Shown: positions 2,778 through 40,282 of the stretch, piece after piece
How the letters are laid out: every line of letters starts with the position of its first letter
How positions within the stretch are numbered: the stretch's first letter is position 1
DNA from: a virus
Reading direction: 5' to 3' (one strand)
Virus record (IMG/VR): IMGVR_UViG_3300048590_000166
Span: 1-43,264 of that record
Length of the DNA stretch: 43,264 bases
Translations under genes and position numbers: made by a program
The notes under the pieces: generated by a model
Seen by the model: only the letters and a program-made list of their open reading frames with translations
Databases searched by the model: none
What the model was told of the DNA's origin: nothing

Positions 2778-3179
2778 ATGGCTTTTCAGTGGGCTTTCAA
2801 TATGAGTGGTGGTATGCCGCTCATCCAGCCGTTCACCGTCAAAAATGCCGAAGTGATCACCGAGGGCATGATGGTCAGCCTGGACACCGGCGAGGTCGAT
2901 AAGGCTGCGCACGGCGATGCCGCCATCATCGGGATCGCGGTGCATGACGCCGACAACACATCCGACGGTCAGACCGTGCGTGTCATCGTCAACCGCGACG
3001 CGGTTTACAGTGTGGTCGATGCCAATGCGCGCGCCGTGGATGCCGACCTTGATCTGGACTCTGACGCGACGGGTGTCACCACCGACAGCAGCCACACCTT
3101 CAAGGTGTTCCGCGACAGCGGTTCAACCGAGCCGACGCTGGTCTACATCAACGCCGGCAATCATTGGCTCGACGCCTAA
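2778..3179 (+). CDS. Capsid decoration/cement-like protein
   Basis: A 133-aa, probably all-beta protein lying 3 bases after the scaffold gene and just before the major capsid gene. AAGGAG lies upstream of the ATG. Residues 20-55 run from PFTVKNAEVITEGMMVSL to a GIAVHDAD turn, the style of small phage proteins that trimerise on capsid surfaces (DUF2190-like). There is no cysteine cluster or membrane segment. The assignment rests on position, size and this weak family resemblance. Confidence 0.6.
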   Translation: MAFQWAFNMSGGMPLIQPFTVKNAEVITEGMMVSLDTGEVDKAAHGDAAIIGIAVHDADNTSDGQTVRVIVNRDAVYSVVDANARAVDADLDLDSDATGVTTDSSHTFKVFRDSGSTEPTLVYINAGNHWLDA

Positions 3180-3191
3180 GGAGATAGCGAC

Positions 3192-4082
3192 ATGACACTC
3201 GTCAGCCAGAATTTCACACAGCTAACAGACTTCGACCCCGTCCTCGCTGAGATTTTCTATCAGCAGTACAACCAGCACCCGCAGCTTCGGCAGCAGGTGT
3301 TTGGGATGCGCCGCAGCCTCAAGGCGAAGGAAACGGAACTGCGCCTCGGTTCGTTCGGCGATCCCGTCGAGTTTGACGGCGCGGTCGAATACGAGACCCC
3401 CAGCCGCGACTACGAAATCGTGTACAGCCACACGCATTTCGTCAAGGGCTTCAGCATCGAGCAGACGCTGCTCGAAGACATGCAGTATGACGGCATCTTC
3501 GCATCGGCTGCGGAGATGGGCCGCGCGTTTGCGCGCAAGCAGGAGAAGGACGCCTGGAGCGTCTTTAACAACGCGACCTCGACCGTCGGCTATGACGGCA
3601 AGGCGCTGATCGCCAATGACCACCCGCGCAGCCGCACCGACGCGACGGCAGTCGACAACCTGCTGGCGCTGGCGCTGGACTCGGCCAACCTTGAAACCGC
3701 CATCACGACCATGCAGGCGTTTGGCGACGACAAGGGCGAAGAAATCTCGATCATGCCCGACCTGCTGATCGTGCCGCGCGCCCTGCGTAAGACAGCGCTC
3801 GAACTGACCGGCTCGCCGCTGAACCCTGGGACGGCGAACAACGCGATCAACGTTCACAGCGGCCTTCGCACGCTGGTCGTGCCGTGGCTGACCGACACCA
3901 ACCGCTGGTTCGTGGTCGACTCGGCGCTGGCGCGTCAGCATCTGAAATGGTGGGATCGTATTGACCCGACCTTTGCCGCCGACGAAGACTTCAACACGCT
4001 CATTCGCCGCTATCGTGGCCGGATGCGCTACTCCTACGGGTGGTCTGACTTCCGGTGGGTTATCGGTTCAGAACCGTCGTAG
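3192..4082 (+). CDS. Major capsid protein, Mu gpT-like (HK97 fold)
   Basis: A 296-aa protein resembling the phage Mu gpT major-head-subunit family. Recognisable family features are an N-terminal FYQQYN helix, an early E-loop region with GFSIEQTLLEDMQYDG, a helix with ARKQEKDAWSVFNNA, a conserved DHP segment near residue 139, PDLLIVPRAL near residue 194, the LVVPWLTDTNRWFVVD strand, and a RYSYGWSDFRW ending. An SD (AAGGAG) precedes ATG 3192. The length is normal for gpT. It should form the icosahedral shell on the scaffold encoded just upstream. No N-terminal delta domain for proteolysis is obvious. Confidence 0.9.
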   Translation: MTLVSQNFTQLTDFDPVLAEIFYQQYNQHPQLRQQVFGMRRSLKAKETELRLGSFGDPVEFDGAVEYETPSRDYEIVYSHTHFVKGFSIEQTLLEDMQYDGIFASAAEMGRAFARKQEKDAWSVFNNATSTVGYDGKALIANDHPRSRTDATAVDNLLALALDSANLETAITTMQAFGDDKGEEISIMPDLLIVPRALRKTALELTGSPLNPGTANNAINVHSGLRTLVVPWLTDTNRWFVVDSALARQHLKWWDRIDPTFAADEDFNTLIRRYRGRMRYSYGWSDFRWVIGSEPS

Positions 4083-20592: not shown

Positions 20593-20620
20593 AAAAGCAC
20601 CCCGCAGGGGGTGCTTTTTT
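20593..20620 (+). terminator. Intrinsic terminator ending the late operon (possibly bidirectional)
   Basis: GCACCCC (20597-20603) pairs with GGGGTGC (20608-20614), extended by A-U pairs, loop GCAG, then six T residues at 20615-20620. On the minus strand the same stem is followed by TTTTGTTTG, so it may also end transcription of the opposing small-gene cluster, whose last stop is at 20642. Confidence 0.92.
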
Positions 20621-20641
20621 GTTGCATAGCGGCGGCGGGTG

Positions 20642-20833
20642 CTAGGCGGTGTCCGTGTCCTCCACGTACCCGCGCCCCTTGCAGCGCCAGCACAGCGCCG
20701 GTGCGTGCGGCGCGAACTTCTCGCCCCTGCACAGCGGACACACGCGCCGCGTCAGTTCCTGCAGGCGCGCGTCGAGCAGCGCGAGTTCGGCGTCGGCGTC
20801 GTGCGTCGTGTCGAGTGTGCGCGTCTCAGCCAC
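20642..20833 (-). CDS. Small zinc-ribbon protein
   Basis: A 63-aa protein starting at GTG 20833, which overlaps the preceding gene's end; TTG 20848 is an alternative adding 5 residues. Residues about 31-55 contain CPLCRGEKF...LCWRCKGRGY, two CxxC pairs forming a zinc ribbon of the DnaJ/rubredoxin-like knuckle kind. It is the last gene of the minus-strand cluster, next to the terminator. Small zinc-ribbon proteins are frequent in phage early regions; the partner is unknown. Confidence 0.65.
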   Translation of the reverse strand: MAETRTLDTTHDADAELALLDARLQELTRRVCPLCRGEKFAPHAPALCWRCKGRGYVEDTDTA

Positions 20834-21149
20834 GCCCCACCGCCCCAACGTACTCTTCTAGCACGCTGTGAACGTCCATTAGCACGCGCATCGGCACGTC
20901 CTTTGACGGCATCCAGTCCGGCGCTTCATAACGCACTTCTGCCGGAGTGAACGTGTACGCGCAGACAGCGAAAAATGCGACGGCTTCTTCGAATAGGACG
21001 GGCCGCCACGGGAAGCCCTCGAACGCACCAATCAGCTTAAGCGCCGCCTTCTGAAGTCGTGCTTCTGCCAGCGTTTCGGGCCGCACGGCGCTGACGAGCG
21101 CCTTGAGTACGTCCGCGACCGGCTGCGTGCTGGTGACGTCGTAAAGCAT
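20826..21149 (-). CDS. Small cytoplasmic protein, unknown
   Basis: A 107-aa helical protein. ATG 21149 is chosen because a GGTGGAG SD lies about 10 bases upstream and the previous gene stops just before it; GTG 21158 would add three residues. The central portion (AEARLQKAALKLIGAFEGFPWRPVLFEEAV) is an amphipathic helix pair. No recognisable domain. It is part of the minus-strand cluster. Confidence 0.6.
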   Translation of the reverse strand: MLYDVTSTQPVADVLKALVSAVRPETLAEARLQKAALKLIGAFEGFPWRPVLFEEAVAFFAVCAYTFTPAEVRYEAPDWMPSKDVPMRVLMDVHSVLEEYVGAVGRG

Positions 21150-21150
21150 G

Positions 21151-21354
21151 TTATCCACGCTCCACCGCCTGTTTCACCCCATTATAGCGCTTCGCGAGTT
21201 CAATGGTCACGTCCGCCTTGCGCTCGGACAGCGCCTCCCACACCTCCTGCGCGTCGCGCTTGCGGTGCCATGCGGCGATGCACTCGCGGGTGAGCGCGTC
21301 GCTTTCGGCCTGTAGTTCAGCGTCGGTCAGGGTCGTGATGTCGCGGGTGTTCAT
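21151..21354 (-). CDS. Small helical protein, unknown
   Basis: A 67-aa protein, nearly all predicted helix (residues 5-60), with many Glu, Arg and Ala. It is joined to the preceding gene by an ATG/TGA overlap, so it is part of the same transcript. The family is not recognised; it may be a coiled-coil regulator or adaptor. Confidence 0.6.
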   Translation of the reverse strand: MNTRDITTLTDAELQAESDALTRECIAAWHRKRDAQEVWEALSERKADVTIELAKRYNGVKQAVERG

Positions 21355-21728
21355 TCGCCCCCCTCCTGCGCCATCAGGCGCATATACTCGAACTCGACAC
21401 GCAGCCAGTACGCCGCGCGCTCCATGCTGCCGTAAGCCGTCAGCGCCCGCCGCACGAACACCGCCGCCGCCGGCTGCCCGACGTTGAGCGCCGCCGCCGC
21501 GTCGTCAATCAGCGCCTGCACCGCCGCCGGCGACGTGTGGTAGTTCTGCGCCAGCGCGCAGGCGGTGTAGCTGTAGATGTGCGTTTGCGGCGCTTCTAAG
21601 GCCGGTAGGTGCGTTTTTACGGCGGGCGCGGTAGAAGTGGGCGCGGCGTCGATAATGTGCGGCAAATAGCGCCATACCGTCACAAACGCCGTAGCCGCGA
21701 TCACGATGGCGACAAGGTCACCGATCAC
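21351..21728 (-). CDS. Membrane-anchored protein of unknown function
   Basis: A 125-aa protein. The open frame extends further up, but GTG 21728 is chosen because AAGGAG lies 7 bases before it, and the upstream frame would overlap the previous gene by over 100 bases. The N-terminal 20 residues (IGDLVAIVIAATAFVTVWRYL) are a signal anchor or uncleaved signal. A Pro/Thr linker follows, then a helical domain (residues 50-125) with one cysteine in YTACALAQNY. It overlaps the genes on both sides. Confidence 0.6.
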   Translation of the reverse strand: MIGDLVAIVIAATAFVTVWRYLPHIIDAAPTSTAPAVKTHLPALEAPQTHIYSYTACALAQNYHTSPAAVQALIDDAAAALNVGQPAAAVFVRRALTAYGSMERAAYWLRVEFEYMRLMAQEGGE

Positions 21729-21936
21729 GGCGGAACTCCTTGCGCTCGAATACCCGCCACCGTTCGCCAAGCCGCTGCTCGTGCTGGCGGCGGTAGGCGC
21801 GGCGGCGGGCAACGCGGCGGTAGGCCTTAATGGCACGCTCAGCACACTCCCACAAGCCTATAGCAACGTACAACAGAATCATGGTGGCGGAAAACAGTCC
21901 GATGATGACATCGTCTAACGTGATCGATTCCTTCAT
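21718..21936 (-). CDS. Small single-TM protein with basic tail
   Basis: A 72-aa protein with GAGGAGG upstream of ATG 21936. Residues about 8-30 (DDVIIGLFSATMILLYVAIGLW) form one membrane segment; residues 35-72 are strongly basic (RRVARRRAYRRQHEQR). The basic tail would stay in the cytoplasm. It neighbours another membrane-anchored gene, so the two may act together at the host membrane, for example in superinfection exclusion. That role is only a guess from topology and its place in the accessory cluster. Confidence 0.6.
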   Translation of the reverse strand: MKESITLDDVIIGLFSATMILLYVAIGLWECAERAIKAYRRVARRRAYRRQHEQRLGERWRVFERKEFRRDR

Positions 21937-22316
21937 GCGTGTGCCTCCTCTACCGCCTCAACGGGCCGCAGCAGGCCCACCAGCACCGACGCCATGCGCG
22001 CCTTGTAGCGCGCAAACGCCGTCATGTGGCGGTCGCGGTCGTAAGTCTCGTCTTCGAACACGGTGATGTAGCGCAGGTAATGCGCTGTCTCGTGCAGGTA
22101 GTACGTTTCGCGCGCCTCTGCCGACAAGCGCACGTACACGGCATTGTCGAGCCACCAGTACCAGCCCTGTTTGCCGACCGGCCCGTCCGGCATGGCAGCA
22201 ATCGCGTCAATTGCCGACGCGTTGGGCGTTTCGGCCAGGTACTCGTCGAGCCACTTGAGCAGGCCGAGCGGCGCGTCCCATGCGCGCAGCAGAACAGCGA
22301 ACTCTTGTGCGGTCAT
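21933..22316 (-). CDS. Accessory protein of unknown function with HETAHYLR motif
   Basis: A 127-aa protein joined to its neighbours by 4-bp overlaps on both sides. Residues 49-60 contain the aromatic patch KQGWYWWLDNAVY, and further on ETYYLHETAHYLRYIT. An HExxH-like spacing is present (HETAHY, H at first and fifth positions, Glu second), which would fit the zinc-metalloprotease core, though the remaining protein is short and lacks an obvious third ligand. I note the motif but do not call it a protease. Confidence 0.55.
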   Translation of the reverse strand: MTAQEFAVLLRAWDAPLGLLKWLDEYLAETPNASAIDAIAAMPDGPVGKQGWYWWLDNAVYVRLSAEARETYYLHETAHYLRYITVFEDETYDRDRHMTAFARYKARMASVLVGLLRPVEAVEEAHA

Positions 22317-22558
22317 TCGGCGTCCTCGCTTTCGGAGACGATGCGTACCATGTACACGCGCTTAATCGCGCCGTTTGCGCTGATGTCAGCGGTGGAATAC
22401 GGGCCACTGTCGCGCGCGCCGAAATCGATCCACCGCAGCGGCTGCTTGGCGTGGCGCTCACACGCGATCTTGGCGTCAAACATGGTGCGGAACTCTCCGA
22501 GAACGCGGTCACGTCGTGCGCCCGTGTAGGAGAATGACTTGGCTGTGAATGTTGCCAT
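22313..22558 (-). CDS. Small protein, unknown
   Basis: An 81-aa protein. ATG 22558 has AGGAGG about 11 bases upstream (on the minus strand), so it is preferred over the open frame that continues upstream to 22702. The protein is basic with an alpha/beta look (SYTGARRDRVLGEFRTMFDAKIACERH). No family is recognised. The first gene after a 100-bp structured gap. Confidence 0.6.
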   Translation of the reverse strand: MATFTAKSFSYTGARRDRVLGEFRTMFDAKIACERHAKQPLRWIDFGARDSGPYSTADISANGAIKRVYMVRIVSESEDAE

Positions 22559-22573
22559 GTGCTTCGTGCCTCC

Positions 22574-22655
22574 TGTGCTATACTGAAGGCCGGCGCGGGT
22601 GCTGTTTGGCGACTTGCCCGCGCCGGCGGCGACGGCGGCCTGTATTGGCCGTCGT
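22574..22655 (+). ncRNA. Candidate small RNA on the plus strand, opposite the accessory cluster
   Basis: TGTGCTATACT at 22574-22584 is an extended -10 element on the plus strand. A start about 7 bases later would put the RNA 5' end at a perfect 11-bp helix (22589-22599 with 22617-22627). A second helix, CGACGGC/GCCGTCG, follows near 22630-22655, then TTTGC, a poor terminator. It would be divergent from the minus-strand gene starting at 22558. The same DNA could instead just form mRNA hairpins on the minus transcript. Confidence 0.3.
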
Positions 22656-22658
22656 TTG

Positions 22659-22790
22659 CTAATAGGGAATGTCATCCTCAGTGGCGGCGGCTTCGTCGTC
22701 ACCCGCCTGCGCTTCCCAACGCGCTTCCGCGTCGGCCTGCTCGTCTTCGCTGCGCCAAATGGCGTCGAGTGTGAACAGCGGGTCGTACAT
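22659..22790 (-). CDS. 43-aa acidic protein with SSB-like C-terminal tail
   Basis: A 43-aa protein. ATG 22790 overlaps the stop of the preceding gene (TGATG), with GGAGGTGGG just upstream. The N-terminus is a short hydrophobic stretch (MYDPLFTLDAIW); the rest is acidic and Ala-rich and ends EDDIPY. Bacterial single-strand binding proteins end with an acidic tip, consensus DDDIPF or similar, that recruits repair and replication proteins. A stand-alone copy of that tip could compete with host SSB. There is no OB fold, so it is not an SSB itself. Short, so moderate confidence. Confidence 0.55.
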   Translation of the reverse strand: MYDPLFTLDAIWRSEDEQADAEARWEAQAGDDEAAATEDDIPY

Positions 22791-23143
22791 CACGCGCCCA
22801 CCTCCTCGCGTCGCTCATTCTTGGCGACGGCTACCGTGAGTAGGCGATTGTTGTTTGCCCACTCGCGGCGGGCGATCTCGTCGTCCGTCCGCTGCCACAC
22901 CGCTTCGAGCGGCTCCACCTGCCACGCGTACACCCACTCGCGGCCTTCGGTCGCAAACGGGAGCCACGCGCCGGTCTCACCCGCGGGCCGGAAGCTGCGG
23001 CAAATGTGCCAGTACTCGACGAGCAGTTCACCGGTGGTCGGGTGCGTGCTGACGATGCGGGCGATCTTCGGGTGCTGCATCTGCAGGTCGCGGACGACGA
23101 CACGGTCGGGCGTACGGACGCTGCTTGCGTTGCGTGCGTTCAT
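22790..23143 (-). CDS. Accessory protein, unknown
   Basis: A 117-aa protein with AGGAG before ATG 23143. The core looks beta-rich (DRVVVRDLQMQHPKIARIVSTHPTTGELLVEYW), resembling a small SH3-like or KOW-type barrel: VRxxxMQHPKIARIVS... GELLVEY, followed by a helical tail. A DNA- or RNA-binding role is possible, but not shown. It sits in the minus cluster upstream of the SSB-tail peptide, with which it is translationally coupled. Confidence 0.6.
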   Translation of the reverse strand: MNARNASSVRTPDRVVVRDLQMQHPKIARIVSTHPTTGELLVEYWHICRSFRPAGETGAWLPFATEGREWVYAWQVEPLEAVWQRTDDEIARREWANNNRLLTVAVAKNERREEVGA

Positions 23144-23154
23144 TCTTTCGTCTC

Positions 23155-23358
23155 CTAGTGAATACGGCTTGCGCGGTTGGCGGCGGTGGTCAGCGCGTCG
23201 AGGCGCTTGCGAAGCAGGCTGATCGTGCGCCGGTTGCGGAACTGGTCGCGCGTGTTGCCGCGTGCTGCAGCAGCGTCTGCGCCCTGCTTGAGTTGCCCGA
23301 TCTGTCGCATGATCGCGACGATCTCGGCGTCGGGGTTGGTGGTGCGGTTGGTTGCCAT
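23155..23358 (-). CDS. Small basic protein, unknown
   Basis: A 67-aa basic protein. ATG 23358 with GGAG about 11 bases upstream is chosen over starts in the frame upstream. Residues 12-60 are helical with an Arg-rich centre (RDQFRNRRTISLLRKRLDALTT). No family is recognised; nucleic-acid contact is plausible because of the charge. Confidence 0.55.
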   Translation of the reverse strand: MATNRTTNPDAEIVAIMRQIGQLKQGADAAAARGNTRDQFRNRRTISLLRKRLDALTTAANRASRIH

Positions 23359-23400
23359 TGTGGTTCGTCTCCTACAATCTAGAGGTGTCTGCCTCGTCAG

Positions 23401-23436
23401 TGGCGGGTGACGCCCGCCAGACGCCCCGTAGGGCGT
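23401..23436. repeat. Two consecutive GC-rich inverted repeats between accessory genes
   Basis: TGGCGGG/CCCGCCA (23401-23407 with 23413-23419) and ACGCCC/GGGCGT (23421-23426 with 23431-23436). They lie between two minus-strand genes. Neither is followed by a T-tract on the minus strand, so they more likely influence mRNA stability or partial termination than give full termination. Confidence 0.6.
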
Positions 23437-23441
23437 TTCGG

Positions 23442-23687
23442 CTACTGCCGCGCGGCGTACCACTCCGCCCACAGCGCTCTGTGAAGTTCCCTGTAAAGCG
23501 TCTGCGCGTGGTCGTAAGTTGCTTCAAAGAGCGCTTCATTACGCTCCGCAAATTCAACGCGAATGATGAGTTTGTCGAGCGTTGCCGCGTGGAAAATGCG
23601 GAAGGACTTGTCAATCGCACGCCCGCCGGCGTCTAGCTTGTCGTATGCGTTGGGGGTGCTGCTGGTGCTGTGCGTTTGGGTGGTCAT
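23442..23687 (-). CDS. First gene of the minus-strand cluster, unknown
   Basis: An 81-aa protein. ATG 23687 is chosen because AGGAG lies 7 bases upstream and the promoter's start site would fall inside the longer frame reaching 23768. The N-terminus is Ser/Thr-rich; the rest is helical (AIDKSFRIFHAATLDKLIIRVEFAERNEALFEATYDHAQTLYREL by position 28-70). Function is unknown. As the promoter-proximal gene it should be the most strongly expressed of the cluster. Confidence 0.6.
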   Translation of the reverse strand: MTTQTHSTSSTPNAYDKLDAGGRAIDKSFRIFHAATLDKLIIRVEFAERNEALFEATYDHAQTLYRELHRALWAEWYAARQ

Positions 23688-23739
23688 GTTGTTCTCCTGT
23701 AGGTTAAAGCGTGCTTTCCAATCTGTACTTACACTTACC

Positions 23740-23768
23740 ATTTTAAGCGCAAAAAGAATAAATGTCAA
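23740..23768 (-). promoter_or_regulatory. Consensus sigma-70 promoter for the minus-strand cluster
   Basis: On the minus strand, TTGACA (23768-23763), exactly 17 bases, then TAAAAT (23745-23740). This is the best promoter in the window. The 14 bases TAAAATGGTAAGTG (23745-23732) are identical to those at the early + promoter (26106-26119), which suggests a shared regulator site overlapping the start of transcription. Confidence 0.8.
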
Positions 23769-23830
23769 CTAGTTCGCTTGGGATATTTACGATCTTCGGA
23801 GTAGAATTGCGTGGAAGTCTAGCGTGGTAT

Positions 23831-23866
23831 CTGGCATATCACTTGTAAGGACATCCAATATGCCAG
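23831..23866. other. Candidate phage attachment site (attP)
   Basis: CTGGCATAT (23831-23839) and ATATGCCAG (23858-23866) are perfect 9-bp inverted repeats separated by 18 bases, starting 4 bases after the integrase stop. Serine-integrase attP sites have this design: paired half-sites around a central dinucleotide, as in phiC31 attP, which also has 9-bp arms. The centre would fall at 23848-23849 (AG). No T-tract follows on the minus strand, so it is less likely a terminator. Confidence 0.5.
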
Positions 23867-23870
23867 CACG

Positions 23871-25445
23871 TCAGCGGATGCGCGCAGCGTCGACAATCTC
23901 GCCGCCGCGTGCCAGGAAGCGCCAGCTTCCCATCATGGCGCGCAGACGCTGGTTAATCTCGCGGTCGGGCAGCTTCCAGAAGGCGTCGAGTGTCATGTCA
24001 CGGATGGCGGACAGTTCGCGCGTCTGCGCTGCCGTGGTCGTGCTGGCTTCTTCGGCGTGCGCCTGCAGGCGGTGGACTTCGTTGGTCAGCGCGTTCAGGC
24101 GGTCGGCGTGTGCTTTCAATTGGTCGCGGTAGATCGGCTGGAGTTCGTCGGGCGCTGCCGCCTGCTCCCCGATCAGGCGTTCCACCTGCTTGACGAGCGC
24201 AGCGCGGTCGGCTTCGGCAGCGGCCAATTGTTCGGCGTAGCGGCCCGGCTCGGCGGGTGAATACTGCGCCAGCATGTCGGGCAGGCTGGCATCCAGCGCG
24301 CGGCTAAGCCGAGTGTTGAAGAAGTCCTGCAGGTACTCGAAATTGACGATCCTGGTATTGGTGCAATCACGCGGCAGGTACGAGCGGCGCAGGTGGGTGT
24401 TGCAGTACAGGCCATACCGACCGCGGCCCGTGCTGTGTACGACCATCGCGCGCCGGCACTCCGCGCACAGCACGAGGCCGCTGAAGCGGTGGGTGTTCTG
24501 CGGGCGGCGGCTGCCCACCATCTCGACACGCCGCCGCAGTTCGGCCTTGAGCCGCTCGGCAGTCTCGCCCGTCCACACCGCCGGTATCCTGTGGCGAAAC
24601 AGTAGGACATTAGCCGGCAGCGGTTCGCTTTCATCGAAGGCCCACACGCCGCCGCCAGCCTTGCGCGTCTTTTCGTATCCCCATCGGCGGGCGGTATGCC
24701 CCCACGTGAGCGGTGAATACATCAGGCGGTAGAGTTTGCCGTAGCTGTAGCGCTTGCCGGTGCCATCATCAACGTGGCCGCGGGCTTCGAGTTCGCGCGG
24801 CAGGATGTTCCAGCCTACGCCGGCCAGCAGCAGATCGGCGATGTCGTCCCACAGGCGGCGCTTCGCTTCATTGACTTCGACGCGCGCCTGCCGCCCGGTG
24901 CGCTCGTCGCGCACGGCGATGTGTGTCATCGGCATGATGTGCGGGATCAGGCCGCGCTCCGCCAGTTTGTCTTTACCGCGCACCCCCATGTCGCGTATCC
25001 AGCGCATCTCCTTCTTCGTTGTATACGCCTTGATCATGGCGAAGATGTCGGCGTTGCTGCTGTCAATCCAGCCGTCATTGAAGCTGTAGATGCGCGCGCT
25101 GCAATCGTCAATAATGTACTCGACGATCTGGTGAATGAGCGACGGCGAACGGCCAAAACGATTGGCGTCTCGGCAAATGAACACGTCGAAGTCACACGCT
25201 TCGAAGTGCGCGGTCAACTTGTCGAAGGCGTCGATGCCTTGAGCGCGGGCGTCTGCCGCCAGCCTTTCGAGCGTCTTGTAATCGCGGCTGTGGCCGGGGA
25301 CGCGCAGCACGTCGACGATCTGCCAATCTTCACGTTCACACAGCGCGCGAGCGTCGTCTTCCTGCGCCTTCAGGCTGTAGTGTTCGTCTTCGTCAGCTTG
25401 CGCCCGCGTTGAAACAGCCGTCCAAATGATCGCGCGCAGCGTCAT
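23871..25445 (-). CDS. int: Large serine recombinase (phage integrase)
   Basis: A 524-aa protein of the large serine recombinase family, which integrates phage DNA by double-strand cuts and rotation. Residues 1-150 form the resolvase catalytic domain: AVSTRAQ carries nucleophile S12, and RDANRFGRS near residue 115 matches the family's conserved DRxxR-like segment. A recombinase domain follows (about 170-290, with the LYRLMYSPLTWGH segment). Then a zinc ribbon: CAEC, followed by YCNTHLRRSYLPRDC (about residues 330-370). A coiled coil occupies about 410-485. Length and order are normal. It shows the phage can form lysogens. ATG 25445 has only a weak SD. Confidence 0.95.
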   Translation of the reverse strand: MTLRAIIWTAVSTRAQADEDEHYSLKAQEDDARALCEREDWQIVDVLRVPGHSRDYKTLERLAADARAQGIDAFDKLTAHFEACDFDVFICRDANRFGRSPSLIHQIVEYIIDDCSARIYSFNDGWIDSSNADIFAMIKAYTTKKEMRWIRDMGVRGKDKLAERGLIPHIMPMTHIAVRDERTGRQARVEVNEAKRRLWDDIADLLLAGVGWNILPRELEARGHVDDGTGKRYSYGKLYRLMYSPLTWGHTARRWGYEKTRKAGGGVWAFDESEPLPANVLLFRHRIPAVWTGETAERLKAELRRRVEMVGSRRPQNTHRFSGLVLCAECRRAMVVHSTGRGRYGLYCNTHLRRSYLPRDCTNTRIVNFEYLQDFFNTRLSRALDASLPDMLAQYSPAEPGRYAEQLAAAEADRAALVKQVERLIGEQAAAPDELQPIYRDQLKAHADRLNALTNEVHRLQAHAEEASTTTAAQTRELSAIRDMTLDAFWKLPDREINQRLRAMMGSWRFLARGGEIVDAARIR

Positions 25446-25522
25446 GTCGCCGGCGCAATTGCCGCTGAAACGTTAGAATGTTGTGTCATTACCCCCCCCA
25501 ACGCTTTTATAACGGAAATAGG

Positions 25523-25600
25523 GCTATACTATACCCGTATAGTGGGCTTTGCCTACTTCTAATAGAACGGGTGTTCTAATATACTATTCAATGAAGTAGA
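25523..25600. other. Inverted-repeat cluster between integrase and repressor genes
   Basis: AT-rich stretch unlike the surroundings. ACTATA/TATAGT (25528-25533 with 25538-25543), TAGAAC/GTTCTA (25563-25568 with 25573-25578), and CTACTTC/GAAGTAG (25553-25559 with 25593-25599). TATACTAT occurs twice as a direct repeat (25525, 25580). The loops of the first two hairpins contain complementary ACCCG and CGGGT. It may hold the integrase promoter, regulator operators or an RNA switch. The 223-bp gap 25446-25668 contains no convincing gene. Confidence 0.6.
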
Positions 25601-25668
25601 AAGGTGCCGACTTGGGACTACCCCGTGATCAGCGCATCAACCTTATTAACCACCTTAGCAGCGCCGAT

Positions 25669-26052
25669 CTAGCTGCGCTCGACCTCGTTGTTGTTCTCGC
25701 CAATTTGGGCGCGTTCGATCAGGATCGCGTCGATCAACTGCCGCATATGCTGCGGCAGCTTTTCGATCTGCTGAGCGCGCACGAGGGACGAGAACTGCCC
25801 GCCGGATAGACGTTCGCCGTCACTCCGTAGTTCAGGGTAGGCAAGCATCAAAAGCATCAGCGCGTTCGTCCCCGTGGCGCGCGCCAGCTTCAAGATAAAC
25901 TCGACCGATGGTGCCTTGACTTGCCTACCCTCTCGCGGATTGATGATCGCGCCTATCGCCGGATGCGAGACGCCGACCAACTCCGCAAAAGCACGAACGG
26001 ACTGATGACGCCGATCTAGTTCTTCCAATATGAAGTCTCGCAAGCTGTCCAT
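25669..26052 (-). CDS. XRE-family repressor (immunity repressor)
   Basis: A 127-aa DNA-binding protein. Residues about 16-62 are a helix-turn-helix domain: SVRAFAELVGVSHPAIGAIIN, then a basic turn and VEFILKLARATG. This is the XRE/Cro-cI type. The remaining 60 residues are short and helical, with no LexA-like Ser-Lys protease, so inactivation by RecA-driven cleavage is not expected. It is divergent from the early operon and upstream of the integrase, the usual place of a lysogeny repressor. An AAGGGG SD lies upstream of ATG 26052. It should repress the early promoter beginning at 26083. Confidence 0.85.
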   Translation of the reverse strand: MDSLRDFILEELDRRHQSVRAFAELVGVSHPAIGAIINPREGRQVKAPSVEFILKLARATGTNALMLLMLAYPELRSDGERLSGGQFSSLVRAQQIEKLPQHMRQLIDAILIERAQIGENNNEVERS

Positions 26053-36937: not shown

Positions 36938-37434
36938 TGACGCCGCGCGCCTTCGACCTCGCACAATTCAAATCCCGCTGGCGCGCCCTGTGCGCGCAGT
37001 GGGACGTCGATCCACTCGAAGGCGCGACGGGCTACCAGTTGGTGCATATCAAGGTCGCGCAAAAACAGGCCGCCGCACCGCCAGCGCCGGAGACGAAAGT
37101 CACGATCACGCGCGCCGAACTCTACGGGCTGATCGCACACGCGCCGGTGCTGCCGGACGACCGGCCCATGCGCGCGGACGTGTTCGCGGACGCATGGCGG
37201 GCGGTGATCACGGAACGCGCCGAGGCCAAGCGACGGGCGCGGCAGGTGTTCACGGCGGCGCTCGTGGTCGCGCTGCTGAAAGCGGACGAGCGCGACGCGA
37301 TGCTGCGGGCGCTGCTGCGGACGCTGCCGCTACGGGAGAGACACAAGCGGCGCGGCTTCGTGCTGCGGTGGGTGCCTGACGGCGCGGGCGGGCTGGTGCG
37401 CGTCGAGACGGCGTTGCAGATGGCGGGTGACTAA
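36937..37434 (+). CDS. Early protein, unknown
   Basis: A 165-aa basic, helical protein with a TAATG overlap at the start. There is an N-terminal helix with FKSRWRALCAQWDVDP, a Pro/Ala linker, and a basic helical C-terminal half with a RERHKRRGFVLRWVPDG segment. No domain is recognised. It sits between a membrane protein and the phosphoesterase. Confidence 0.55.
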   Translation: MTPRAFDLAQFKSRWRALCAQWDVDPLEGATGYQLVHIKVAQKQAAAPPAPETKVTITRAELYGLIAHAPVLPDDRPMRADVFADAWRAVITERAEAKRRARQVFTAALVVALLKADERDAMLRALLRTLPLRERHKRRGFVLRWVPDGAGGLVRVETALQMAGD

Positions 37435-38558
37435 TGAAAGGACGGGCATTGAAACGAAAGAACGCACGCGCGACTGACAAAGAACTCTACGAACTGCGCG
37501 CATCCGGCCTGTCGTGCCGCGACATCGCCGCGCGCTTTACGCCGCCGCTGTCGGCCAACTCCGTCCGTGGTCGCGCCAATCGATACAAGCGACGCCTTGC
37601 CGCCGCTGCCGCGCTGCAGGCGGACGTCCGCAAGGCACGCGAGACAGCGCCCGCGCCGCTGGTGGAAGACGAGATCGCGCCGCTGGTGCTGCCGCGCACC
37701 GACGCCGCCGCCGACGACGCCGAACGCTGGCGCGACACGCTGGCCGATCTGCGCTGCAAGCAGTTCGTCACCGTCGCGCACGTCAGCGACATGCACTTCC
37801 CGTTTGCGGACGCCGACGCGCTGGCGCTCACCTACCAGGCGCTCGAACTAATCGCGCCGGACGTGATCGTGACGCTTTCCGACGGCTTCGACTTCGCGCA
37901 AATCTCGCACTTCGCGCCCGATCCCGATCTCGGCAACGACGACATCCTCGACAACGTCCGTCAGCATTGGTGGGATCACATCGAAGGGCTGCGCCGCGCC
38001 GCGCCGAAGGCGACGATCCGCGCGATCATGGGCAATCACGACACGCGCCTGCTGCGCTTCCTGAATGAGACGGCTCCGCAGGTGCGCCGTACCATGATCA
38101 GCAGCTTTGACGAACTCGTGCGCTACCAGAAGCGGGTGCTGCTGCCCAATCACGACGAACAGGCGCGCATCGGCCCGCTCACGGTGATGCACGGCAACAA
38201 GCGCACGCTGCAGAAGTTCGGCGCAAAGGCGCAGCTTGAAGAGACGGCGTATCAGCAGTTCGTCATGTCGGGCCACCGTCACCGTCCGGACTGGCATCTC
38301 ATGCGCGGCGCTCGGCAGGCGGTGCAGTCGGTGATCGGCGGGTGCCTGTGCAAGCTGCCGCCGCATTACGACAAGTCGGGCGCGCCGTCGCTGTGGACGC
38401 AGGGCTTCAGCTACGGCATCGTGGACATGCGCGCGAACTATGCGTGGCTGCACAACGTCGTCTACGAGCGCCATGACGGGCTGCTGCGGACGACGATTGG
38501 CGCGCGCATCCTGCTGCAAGAGATCGACGCCGACGCGCTGGCGATGGCGGGGGACTAA
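37434..38558 (+). CDS. Calcineurin-like metallophosphoesterase with N-terminal HTH
   Basis: A 374-aa protein. Residues about 15-50 look like a helix-turn-helix (TDKELYELRASGLSCRDIAARF). Residues 113-330 form the phosphoesterase: VAHVSDMHF (D119, H121), VTLSDGFDF (D150; the usual Gly before this Asp is replaced by Ser149), GNHD (200-203), VMHGN and SGHRHRPDW. All metal-binding residues are present, so the enzyme should be active on phosphodiesters, perhaps DNA or RNA ends. Phage relatives often lie in the replication module, as here. Start coupled by TAATG overlap. Confidence 0.85.
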   Translation: MKGRALKRKNARATDKELYELRASGLSCRDIAARFTPPLSANSVRGRANRYKRRLAAAAALQADVRKARETAPAPLVEDEIAPLVLPRTDAAADDAERWRDTLADLRCKQFVTVAHVSDMHFPFADADALALTYQALELIAPDVIVTLSDGFDFAQISHFAPDPDLGNDDILDNVRQHWWDHIEGLRRAAPKATIRAIMGNHDTRLLRFLNETAPQVRRTMISSFDELVRYQKRVLLPNHDEQARIGPLTVMHGNKRTLQKFGAKAQLEETAYQQFVMSGHRHRPDWHLMRGARQAVQSVIGGCLCKLPPHYDKSGAPSLWTQGFSYGIVDMRANYAWLHNVVYERHDGLLRTTIGARILLQEIDADALAMAGD

Positions 38559-38824: not shown

Positions 38825-39156
38825 TGGACTACCCGACAAACATCACCAACGCAGCGCATCGCGCGCAGTATGACGACATCTACCGCGCGGCGGTTGAGCA
38901 GGTTGTCGACACGGTGCGGCAGGCGTTCCCGCAGGTCGAGATCGACGTCAGGGCGATTACCAACCCTCTAGACGCGGCGCAGTTGTGGTACGTGGCGATT
39001 ACGTTTACATGGCGTGCTGGGCCGTGGGTCGCGCCGCAGGTGGCGATCTACGGCCACGAGCTGATCGATGAAGGCGTCCGCATCTCCGACATCGTTGAAC
39101 ACACGCTGACCGCTATCGCGCGGCGAATGCCGGATCGCCTGCCGCCGCAGGAATAG
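38824..39156 (+). CDS. Last early gene before the structured noncoding region, unknown
   Basis: A 110-aa protein with an alpha/beta look: helix (YDDIYRAAVEQVVDTVRQAF), a strand region (VEIDVRAITN... WYVAITFTWRAG) and a C-terminal helix (ISDIVEHTLTAIARRM). No family is recognised. Immediately after its stop a long inverted repeat begins. Confidence 0.6.
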   Translation: MDYPTNITNAAHRAQYDDIYRAAVEQVVDTVRQAFPQVEIDVRAITNPLDAAQLWYVAITFTWRAGPWVAPQVAIYGHELIDEGVRISDIVEHTLTAIARRMPDRLPPQE

Positions 39157-39198
39157 CGCCACAAGCGCGTATACGGCGATCTGCGCGATTTTGTGGCG
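39157..39198 (+). other. 8-bp inverted repeat after the early operon
   Basis: CGCCACAA (39157-39164) pairs exactly with TTGTGGCG (39191-39198) across 26 bases that contain GCGCG twice. It begins at the base after the stop codon at 39154-39156. There is no T-tract, so intrinsic termination is not evident. It may be a 3' end or processing hairpin. Confidence 0.55.
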
Positions 39199-39271
39199 GT
39201 ATAGGTGTCAACGTAAAGGGGCGCGAATTGCGCGGCGTGTGGTGCGTCAACACAGCAAACGGTGCGGGGGC

Positions 39272-39300
39272 TTGACGAGTGTGGTAAGATACTCTTAGAA
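39272..39300 (+). promoter_or_regulatory. Candidate promoter of the structured RNA
   Basis: Two overlapping readings: TGGTAAGAT at 39282-39290 as an extended -10 (TGG + TAAGAT), or TTGACG (39272-39277) with 17 bases to TTAGAA (39295-39300). Either would start an RNA near 39297-39307. Promoter identity is not certain, but the position just upstream of the structured region is right. Confidence 0.45.
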
Positions 39301-39357
39301 CGTGCGTCCACATTTCGGCCTCGGCGTCAACGGGGTTGCTCGAAAAGTGGACGCCAC

Positions 39358-39426
39358 AAGCGGAGTGCGCGAATGGAAGCGCAGCGCCATACGGCGTAAC
39401 AGTCCGTTCAAGTCGGAACTCCGCTT
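39358..39426 (+). ncRNA. tRNA-like cloverleaf lacking a normal anticodon arm
   Basis: AAGCGGAGT (39358-39366) pairs fully with ACTCCGCTT (39418-39426). Inside are three arms: GCGC/GCGC with loop GAATGGAA (D-like, containing GG); GCGCC/GGCGT with 4-base loop ATAC; and TCCG/CGGA with loop TTCAAGT, which fits the TTCRANY T-loop rule. Only 19 bases separate the D- and T-like arms, so there is no 7-base anticodon loop. The middle arm resembles the variable arm of Leu/Ser tRNAs. The 3' end reads TTCA, near but not equal to NCCA. Confidence 0.5.
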
Positions 39427-39551
39427 CAGGGTGTTAGCAAAGACGATCCCTTAACAGGGCTCCTCTCGACTGCCGGCTCCGCGCGCTGCCGGCGCTAACA
39501 CCAAGCGCGCAAGTTCGTGGTCGCGGGGTTGCATCCGTGCGGCCACACAAT

Positions 39552-39579
39552 AGCCGTAAGCACACGCTTGCGGCTTTTT
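39552..39579 (+). terminator. Intrinsic terminator of the structured RNA
   Basis: AGCCGTAAGC (39552-39561) pairs over 10 bp, with one G-U, with GCTTGCGGCT (39566-39575); loop ACAC; T-tract 39575-39579. It lies 112 bases before the terminase start, so the terminase genes need read-through, antitermination or their own promoter. Confidence 0.88.
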
Positions 39580-39691
39580 GTATGAGCGCTCACCGGCGGT
39601 CAACCCGCCACCGAAGTAGCGGCGACAGAGTACGGGACTCAAACGCGCCGCGCCGCCGGTGTACCTTTACCCACACGAGACGCAGGAACTT

Positions 39692-40282
39692 ATGGCACGC
39701 CCTTCCAAGCTGACGGACAAAACACAAGCGAAGATCGTCGCGTGCGTCGAAAAAGGCGCGACTGTTGCCGATGCGTGCGCTGTGAGTGGCGTTAGTGAGA
39801 CAGCGTTCTACGAGTGGATGCAGCGCGGACGCGAAGGCGACACCGGCTATGCGGAGTTTGCGGACGCCGTAACGCGGGCACGCGAGGCGGCGAAAGTCAC
39901 AGCCATTGAAACGCTGCACTCCGCCATGCTGCCGACGCGCACCGTCAGCACGACGAAAGAAGTATACACCGAGACGCGCGTCAACATGTACGGCTCACCC
40001 TACGAGTACAAGAAGGCGACGGAGCGCACGACGGTGACAGTTGCGCCGGGCGACTGGCGCGCAGCCGTCGAATACCTGAAGCGCCGCTACCGCGAAGAGT
40101 GGAGCGAGAAAAGCATTGTCGAGCATCAGGACTGGCGCAGCGAAGCGCTGTCACTCATTCGGGACGGCAAACTAGACTACCACGTGGCGGTACAGGAATT
40201 TGGCCGTGATCTCGCAATCGAGTTATTTGAGTCCGTCGGCGTATCAGTCGCTGATGCGGGAGAAGCTACGCCGCGCGCTTGA
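39692..40282 (+). CDS. terS: Terminase small subunit
   Basis: A 196-aa protein. ATG 39692 with AGGA 6 bases before is preferred over the frame's first start at 39659. Residues 1-45 form a helix-turn-helix (ARPSKLTDKTQAKIVACVEKGATVADACAVSGVSETAFYEWMQRGREG), the usual DNA-recognition domain of phage TerS, with the YEWMQRGREGDTGYAEF ending typical of this family. A central coiled-coil oligomerisation part and a C-terminal segment follow. It recognises the packaging site and hands DNA to the large subunit, whose gene overlaps by 77 bases. Confidence 0.88.
   Translation: MARPSKLTDKTQAKIVACVEKGATVADACAVSGVSETAFYEWMQRGREGDTGYAEFADAVTRAREAAKVTAIETLHSAMLPTRTVSTTKEVYTETRVNMYGSPYEYKKATERTTVTVAPGDWRAAVEYLKRRYREEWSEKSIVEHQDWRSEALSLIRDGKLDYHVAVQEFGRDLAIELFESVGVSVADAGEATPRA

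Follow-up and report, generated by a model that had tools for sequence, protein, structure and literature searches.

What occupies the 535 bases (39157–39691) that separate a 110-aa open reading frame, ending at position 39156, from the gene for TerS (phrog_4102), starting at 39692, in the 43,264-base IMG/VR virus record analysed here (the window)? A first-pass annotation had described this stretch as gene-free and as containing a promoter candidate, a chain of helices and a strong terminator, with a tRNA-like domain that has no anticodon. Nothing credible is indeed coded between the two genes, and a 50-aa open reading frame that crosses the locus is broken in a related contig (L088) that has a 1-nt insertion. 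Positions 39297–39580 hold a real, previously undescribed, strongly folded phage RNA gene of approximately 280 bases, predicted to be non-coding and located ahead of the packaging genes.

Fold, start and stop of the predicted RNA

The fold of positions 39300–39580 has a predicted energy of −136.4 kcal/mol and a z-score of −5.88, and none of 200 shuffled sequences is equally stable, which bears out the proposed chain of helices. The RNA can be divided into four parts: a 5′ hairpin, a cloverleaf, a second branched domain, and a 3′ hairpin followed by a terminator (Table 1). The 3′ hairpin and terminator together (39517–39580) have a z-score of −5.3. The annotated terminator was also recovered, as a stem-loop at 39552–39575 with a T run. 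The promoter candidate stands in part: an extended −10 element, TGG-TAAGAT, can be read directly at 39282–39290, 7–8 nt before the predicted start of the RNA, and the alignment places −10 elements at the same position in the three relatives (TAAGAT, TATAAT, and TAGGAT), with L088 reading TTGACA-16-TAGGAT, but a strict sigma-70 scan found no promoter for the RNA. The interval between the terminator and terS contains no sigma-70 promoter match, so expression of the late genes must depend on read-through or on a different type of promoter. No antiterminator pairing beyond chance was found inside the RNA.

Several repeats surround the promoter. A hairpin, CGCCACAA...TTGTGGCG, is located upstream of it at 39157–39198, and the extended left arm of this hairpin, CGCCACAAGCG, is repeated exactly at 39352–39362, at the start of the cloverleaf. 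The sequence CGTCAA...TTGACG around 39245–39277 has become TGTCAA...TTGACA in L088, with corresponding changes in the two halves. GTCAAC hexamers are present at 39207, 39246, 39326, and 39599, and the other three loci have four to five each near the RNA.

Table 1. Features of the locus in the window
Feature	Coordinates	Strand	Description
Promoter region	39242–39290	+	Conserved block GCAAACGGTGCGGG(N)GCTTGAC; identified by direct reading and in the four-contig alignment
Predicted non-coding RNA, allele A	39297–39580	+	Start approximately 39297 (±3); end at the T run of the terminator
5′ hairpin	39304–39354	+	Core UUC-GGCCUC-N7/9-GGGGYU-GCYN-GAA; z −3.68
tRNA-like cloverleaf	39358–39426	+	Closing stem 39358–39366/39418–39426, D-like arm 39367–39382, middle arm 39384–39397, T arm 39403–39417
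Second branched domain	39430–39502	+	Closed by GGTGTTAGC/GCTAACACC; z −3.08
3′ hairpin	39517–39546	+	GGUCG...GCGGCC; counterpart in allele B
Intrinsic terminator	39552–39580	+	10-bp stem, 4-nt loop, T run
77-nt non-coding element	39585–39661	+	Identical in all four contigs

The tRNA-like domain

The closing stem of the cloverleaf consists of a 9-bp inverted repeat without mismatches, AAGCGGAGT/ACTCCGCTT. It encloses a D arm, GCGC-GAATGGAA-GCGC, the loop of which contains GG; a middle arm, GCGCC-ATAC-GGCGT, in which four nucleotides (ATAC) take the place of the 7-base anticodon loop; and a T arm, TCCG-TTCAAGT-CGGA. All the elements of the annotated cloverleaf are thus present, and the fold (39354–39432) has a z-score of −4.23, with none of 200 shuffles as stable. 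Direct reading in tRNA numbering identifies A14, R15, G18-G19, A21, the G53-C61 pair, and T54-T55-C56-A57-A58, the residues that build the elbow of tRNA. The domain does not have a CCA end, its 3′ flank being CAGGG, and the linker of positions 8–9 is reduced, with none in the predicted fold.

A T loop of the form TTCRANY closed by a G-C pair, together with GG in the D loop, was found at 39367–39417. A geometric descriptor of the cloverleaf, composed after the sequence had been seen, matches once when both strands of the window are searched, against approximately 0.001 matches expected; 368 Mb of sequence generated by a first-order Markov model contained four matches. Its other matches, in 1.7 Mb of phage loci, resemble ordinary tRNAs, several of them confirmed by ARAGORN. 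Apart from the two known copies of the cloverleaf and the reverse strand of the window copy, the best matches of a covariance model built from these two copies are a tRNA-Cys (25.3 bits), a site in contig L050 (18.7), and a tRNA-Met (17.9); the tRNA-Cys and tRNA-Met are true tRNAs, whereas the L050 match is weak and not a tRNA. ARAGORN did not call a tRNA on the cloverleaf, and the tRNA family RF00005 did not match at E ≤ 10, even when only an 86-base stretch was searched. The ARAGORN search for tmRNA was negative and Rfam gave no tmRNA match; at gathering and permissive thresholds Rfam produced only chance matches in the RNA region, and Rfam 15 gave no Y RNA match. The tRNA-like nature of the domain is real, and the checks with ARAGORN and Infernal/Rfam uphold the proposal that it belongs to an undescribed structured RNA.

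Two alleles in four contigs

IMG/VR was scanned with patterns for TerL, portal, TerS, and metallophosphoesterase and with DNA patterns. Three contigs besides the window carry the locus (L083, L084, and L088), and the evidence for a family thus consists of four contigs in two close pairs. The window and L088 share allele A, which contains the cloverleaf, whereas L083 and L084 share allele B, which does not. The RNA of L088 is 94% identical to that of the window over its whole length, the 1-nt insertion aside, and retains the second branched domain and the cloverleaf, in which 67 of 69 bases are identical while the rest of the contig has diverged. The allele B RNA is approximately 209 nt long, 95% identical between L083 and L084, and approximately 64–65% like the window RNA in a forced alignment; its middle consists of simple hairpins that replace the cloverleaf and the second branched domain. 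The alleles in L084 have a recombinant arrangement. The fold z-scores are −4.8 in L083 and −4.7 in L084, compared with −5.9 in the window.

Both alleles have the core of the 5′ hairpin, the 3′ hairpin, the −10 element, the terminator, and the position at the head of the late operon. The 5′ hairpin is the only part clearly common to the two in sequence; the terminator of allele B occupies the same place and is unrelated in sequence to that of allele A. The core pattern of the 5′ hairpin occurs once in the window against 0.01 expected, and a covariance model of this hairpin (R1) matches only the four contigs. Since allele B does not contain the cloverleaf, the tRNA mimic is an optional module, which argues against reading the locus as a single tRNA-mimic RNA.

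Relatives of TerL at 35–47% identity have neither the 5′ motif nor a TLS other than ordinary tRNAs, and the TLS and second-domain patterns match only L088 in IMG/VR. A conserved-element pattern matched one further contig, L089, by chance; this phage is unrelated. Comparison by BLAST with named phages and plasmids returned nothing meaningful, and the eight matches of the 5′ motif in GTDB species genomes lie in long open frames and appear to be chance matches, near the few expected. Public collections were scanned with DNA patterns that had to match exactly, so more divergent members may exist. No RNA of this kind is described in the open-access literature searched, a weak indication that it is new. 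Judged from these comparisons, the RNA appears to define a new family of phage RNAs with a narrow distribution, represented by four contigs.

The allele of the upstream metallophosphoesterase tracks that of the RNA: L083 and L084 are 100% identical over the fragment compared, the window and L088 are 87% identical, and identities between alleles A and B are 69–73%. Given four contigs, this association may be linkage only. The N-terminus of the metallophosphoesterase of the window (37434–38558) resembles, by eye, a GcrA-type helix-turn-helix. The interval between this gene and the RNA is mosaic in all the relatives, and in L083 a gene at 2807–3523 on the minus strand, by eye HNH endonuclease-like, stands in place of two small genes.

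The phage of the window is probably temperate. A minus-strand module at 20600–26052 includes a serine recombinase (23871–25445) and a repressor-like helix-turn-helix protein (25669–26052), and the open reading frames scanned at 20.6–23.8 kb have no Pfam match. A type II hammerhead ribozyme is located directly downstream of the serine recombinase gene, at 23383–23443 on the minus strand, with a score of 46.5 bits compared with a gathering score of 37. Host assignment was attempted through protein matches only and reached no host.

Conservation of the helices

Within the locally supported helices, five of the six pairs that changed between the window and L088 still pair, through G-U, and one is broken; a random substitution has a 27% chance of keeping a pair. 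Approximately ten further changes affect unpaired positions. Four more broken pairs belong to the global minimum-energy fold only (39302–39303/39356–39357 and 39548–39549/39579–39580), and these are peripheral, at the ends of the fold and outside the local domain folds. The 5′ hairpin is paired in 40 of 40 cells across the four contigs, one pair having changed on both sides from U-A to G-C. Far less pairing is obtained in slid registers, and the shuffle control, which is weak with four sequences, reaches the observed value in 90 of 500 trials. By reading, the central helices of allele B also persist while their loops vary. Conservation of the helices in relatives, the absence of which would have counted against the first-pass annotation, is found between the window and L088, which mostly keep pairing, and in the 5′ hairpin of all four contigs, but it does not extend to the cloverleaf in allele B.

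Uncoupling from the terminase

The RNA allele is uncoupled from the type of terminase in all informative pairs, which is the clearest new result of this analysis. The window and L083 have TerL proteins that are 99.4% identical and TerS proteins that are 92% identical, and their RNA alleles differ. L083 and L084 share an RNA allele, and their TerL proteins belong to different families (phrog_38 and phrog_2). The window and L088 also share an RNA allele; their TerL proteins are 47% identical over 198 aa, and no similarity of TerS is detectable. The gene that follows the RNA is terS in the window and L083, a nuclease/ParB-like gene in L084, and an HNH endonuclease gene in L088. The RNA is thus unlikely to be a terminase-specific partner, and the suggestion in the first-pass annotation of a role in packaging or terminase control, made from its place ahead of terS, is not supported.

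These differing genes all follow the 77-nt non-coding element (Table 1), which is possibly a late promoter, a regulator site, or a recombination point. Its minus strand can fold into a hairpin of seven pairs capped by a UUCG loop.

Possible roles of the RNA

The position of the RNA and its terminator suggest action in cis. We tentatively judge it most likely that a terminated non-coding RNA acts as the leader of the late operon, with a tRNA-elbow mimic in the middle of allele A; we infer its transcription, the leader role, and contact with an enzyme. This reading is preferred because the fixed place, start, 5′ hairpin, 3′ hairpin, and stop reproduce the layout of PR′-tR′ in phage lambda, and the RNA is located ahead of the run of late genes in each of the four contigs, whichever gene comes next. 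Lambdoid phages make a short terminated late transcript until an antiterminator acts. The Q-dependent late promoter PR′, followed by the terminator tR′, provides the precedent (PMC6606751).

In the leader model, a small group of phages would have an RNA of approximately 210–280 nt, with its own start and stop, at the head of the late operon of packaging and head genes. RNA polymerase would start at the locus, produce the leader, and halt at the terminator, and read-through would occur if a phage factor or the leader itself permits it. The promoter, the 5′ hairpin with its conserved internal motif, the 3′ hairpin, and the intrinsic terminator are the constant parts, between which the middle evolves fast. 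The elbow mimic of allele A is probably an altered tRNA acquired in one lineage, and it may stabilise the RNA, serve its processing, or engage enzymes that handle tRNA, such as RNase P or tRNA-modifying enzymes. No lambdoid late leader is known to require so much structure, which counts against the model, and no antiterminator gene was identified. Furthermore, the 77-nt element could hold a late promoter of its own, in which case the RNA would be an independent small RNA.

The main rival, which we consider somewhat unlikely, is a tRNA-mimic RNA that acts in trans as a decoy or effector. Its elbow, formed by G18-G19 and TTCAA, would draw RNase P, CCA-adding or tRNA-modifying enzymes, PNPase, or a tRNA-cutting defence nuclease. 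The complete set of elbow residues, the stability of the cloverleaf (z −4.2), and the retrieval of true tRNAs by its covariance model agree with this, and YrlA Y RNA and tmRNA are precedents for the imitation of tRNA arms (PMC8394870). Nevertheless, the whole domain is absent from allele B in the same slot, the CCA end is missing and the 8–9 linker reduced, and no Ro/Rsr partner was detected by Pfam among the 20 window proteins scanned.

A regulatory small RNA that pairs with phage or host mRNA, with allele-specific loops providing specificity for the phage type, is unlikely. Within each allele pair the loops are the most variable parts and the helices persist, and the recombinant arrangement in L084 is in keeping with such a role, but complementarity to the rest of the window does not exceed chance, with one 14-mer found against 0.17 expected. 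It is quite unlikely that the locus is an allelic, swappable effector in which the elbow mimic titrates a host enzyme that targets tRNA, or redirects it, as the late genes switch on, allele B being a different effector on the same scaffold. The enzyme in this reading would be a defence nuclease, RNase P, or the PNPase degradosome.

It is improbable that the locus is a DNA-level site, such as an origin, an operator cluster, or a recombination site, with palindromes that imitate RNA structure. GTCAAC is clustered here (four of the 30 copies in the window, both orientations counted, within approximately 400 bp), and the 77-nt element is identical in four contigs; the changes nevertheless favour G-U pairs, which are relevant only in RNA, the locus shows cloverleaf geometry and a T loop, and the −10 element and terminator frame the fold. 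A replication origin at the locus was considered and rejected, as GC skew gave no clear signal and no sharp switch there. Slightly less probable is a tRNA gene in decay, or a tRNA fragment at an att site, without a function of its own. The domain can be aligned to tRNA numbering, with an anticodon arm that is 3 nt too short, but 67 of its 69 bases and its pairs are kept in an otherwise diverged contig, it is part of a larger folded RNA that has a terminator, and the recombinase is 14 kb away. A packaging RNA or terminase-control element like the pRNA of phi29 is the least probable of all, as the position directly upstream of terS in the window and L083 is outweighed by the disagreement of RNA allele and TerL type in three pairs (window/L083, L083/L084, and window/L088) and by the other gene located between the RNA and terS in L084 and L088.

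Comparison with known systems

Mimicry of tRNA by non-coding RNAs is known from tmRNA, Y RNAs, and the TLS of plant viruses. The domain described here resembles canonical tRNA (RF00005) in its elbow residues and its 5-nt variable region, and differs from it in the 4-nt middle loop, the 9+4 acceptor/T stack, and the absence of CCA and, in the predicted fold, of the 8–9 linker. With tmRNA it shares an elbow without the function of an anticodon arm, whereas the tag reading frame, CCA, the alanine G3-U70 pair, and any ARAGORN or Rfam match are missing. In YrlA Y RNA, too, a module with D, T, and acceptor arms resembles tRNA and is part of a longer modular non-coding RNA (PMC8394870). The phage RNA, of approximately 280 nt compared with 90–150 nt in YrlA, does not have a 5′-3′ Ro-binding stem around the domain or an Rfam match.

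Among phage RNAs, the pRNA of phi29 is similar in being non-coding and near packaging genes; the window RNA is uncoupled from terminase alleles and has no Rfam match. The putRNA of HK022 is likewise a folded nascent phage RNA near a promoter, which could act on RNA polymerase (PMC9378689), whereas the window RNA folds into a longer series of domains that closes with a terminator. The layout resembles that of the lambda-type late leader, with a candidate promoter (seen by reading and alignment, the strict scan being negative), a predicted short leader, and an intrinsic terminator directly before the late genes. The phage RNA is far more structured and has a conserved 5′ hairpin, and neither a Q gene nor a QBE was identified. 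If the structure proposed here is correct, this phage RNA would show tRNA mimicry in a new context, as an anticodon-less elbow that sits between a constant 5′ motif and a terminator and can be exchanged as a module. The swap of alleles provides a natural experiment, in which close phage backbones occur with and without the mimic.
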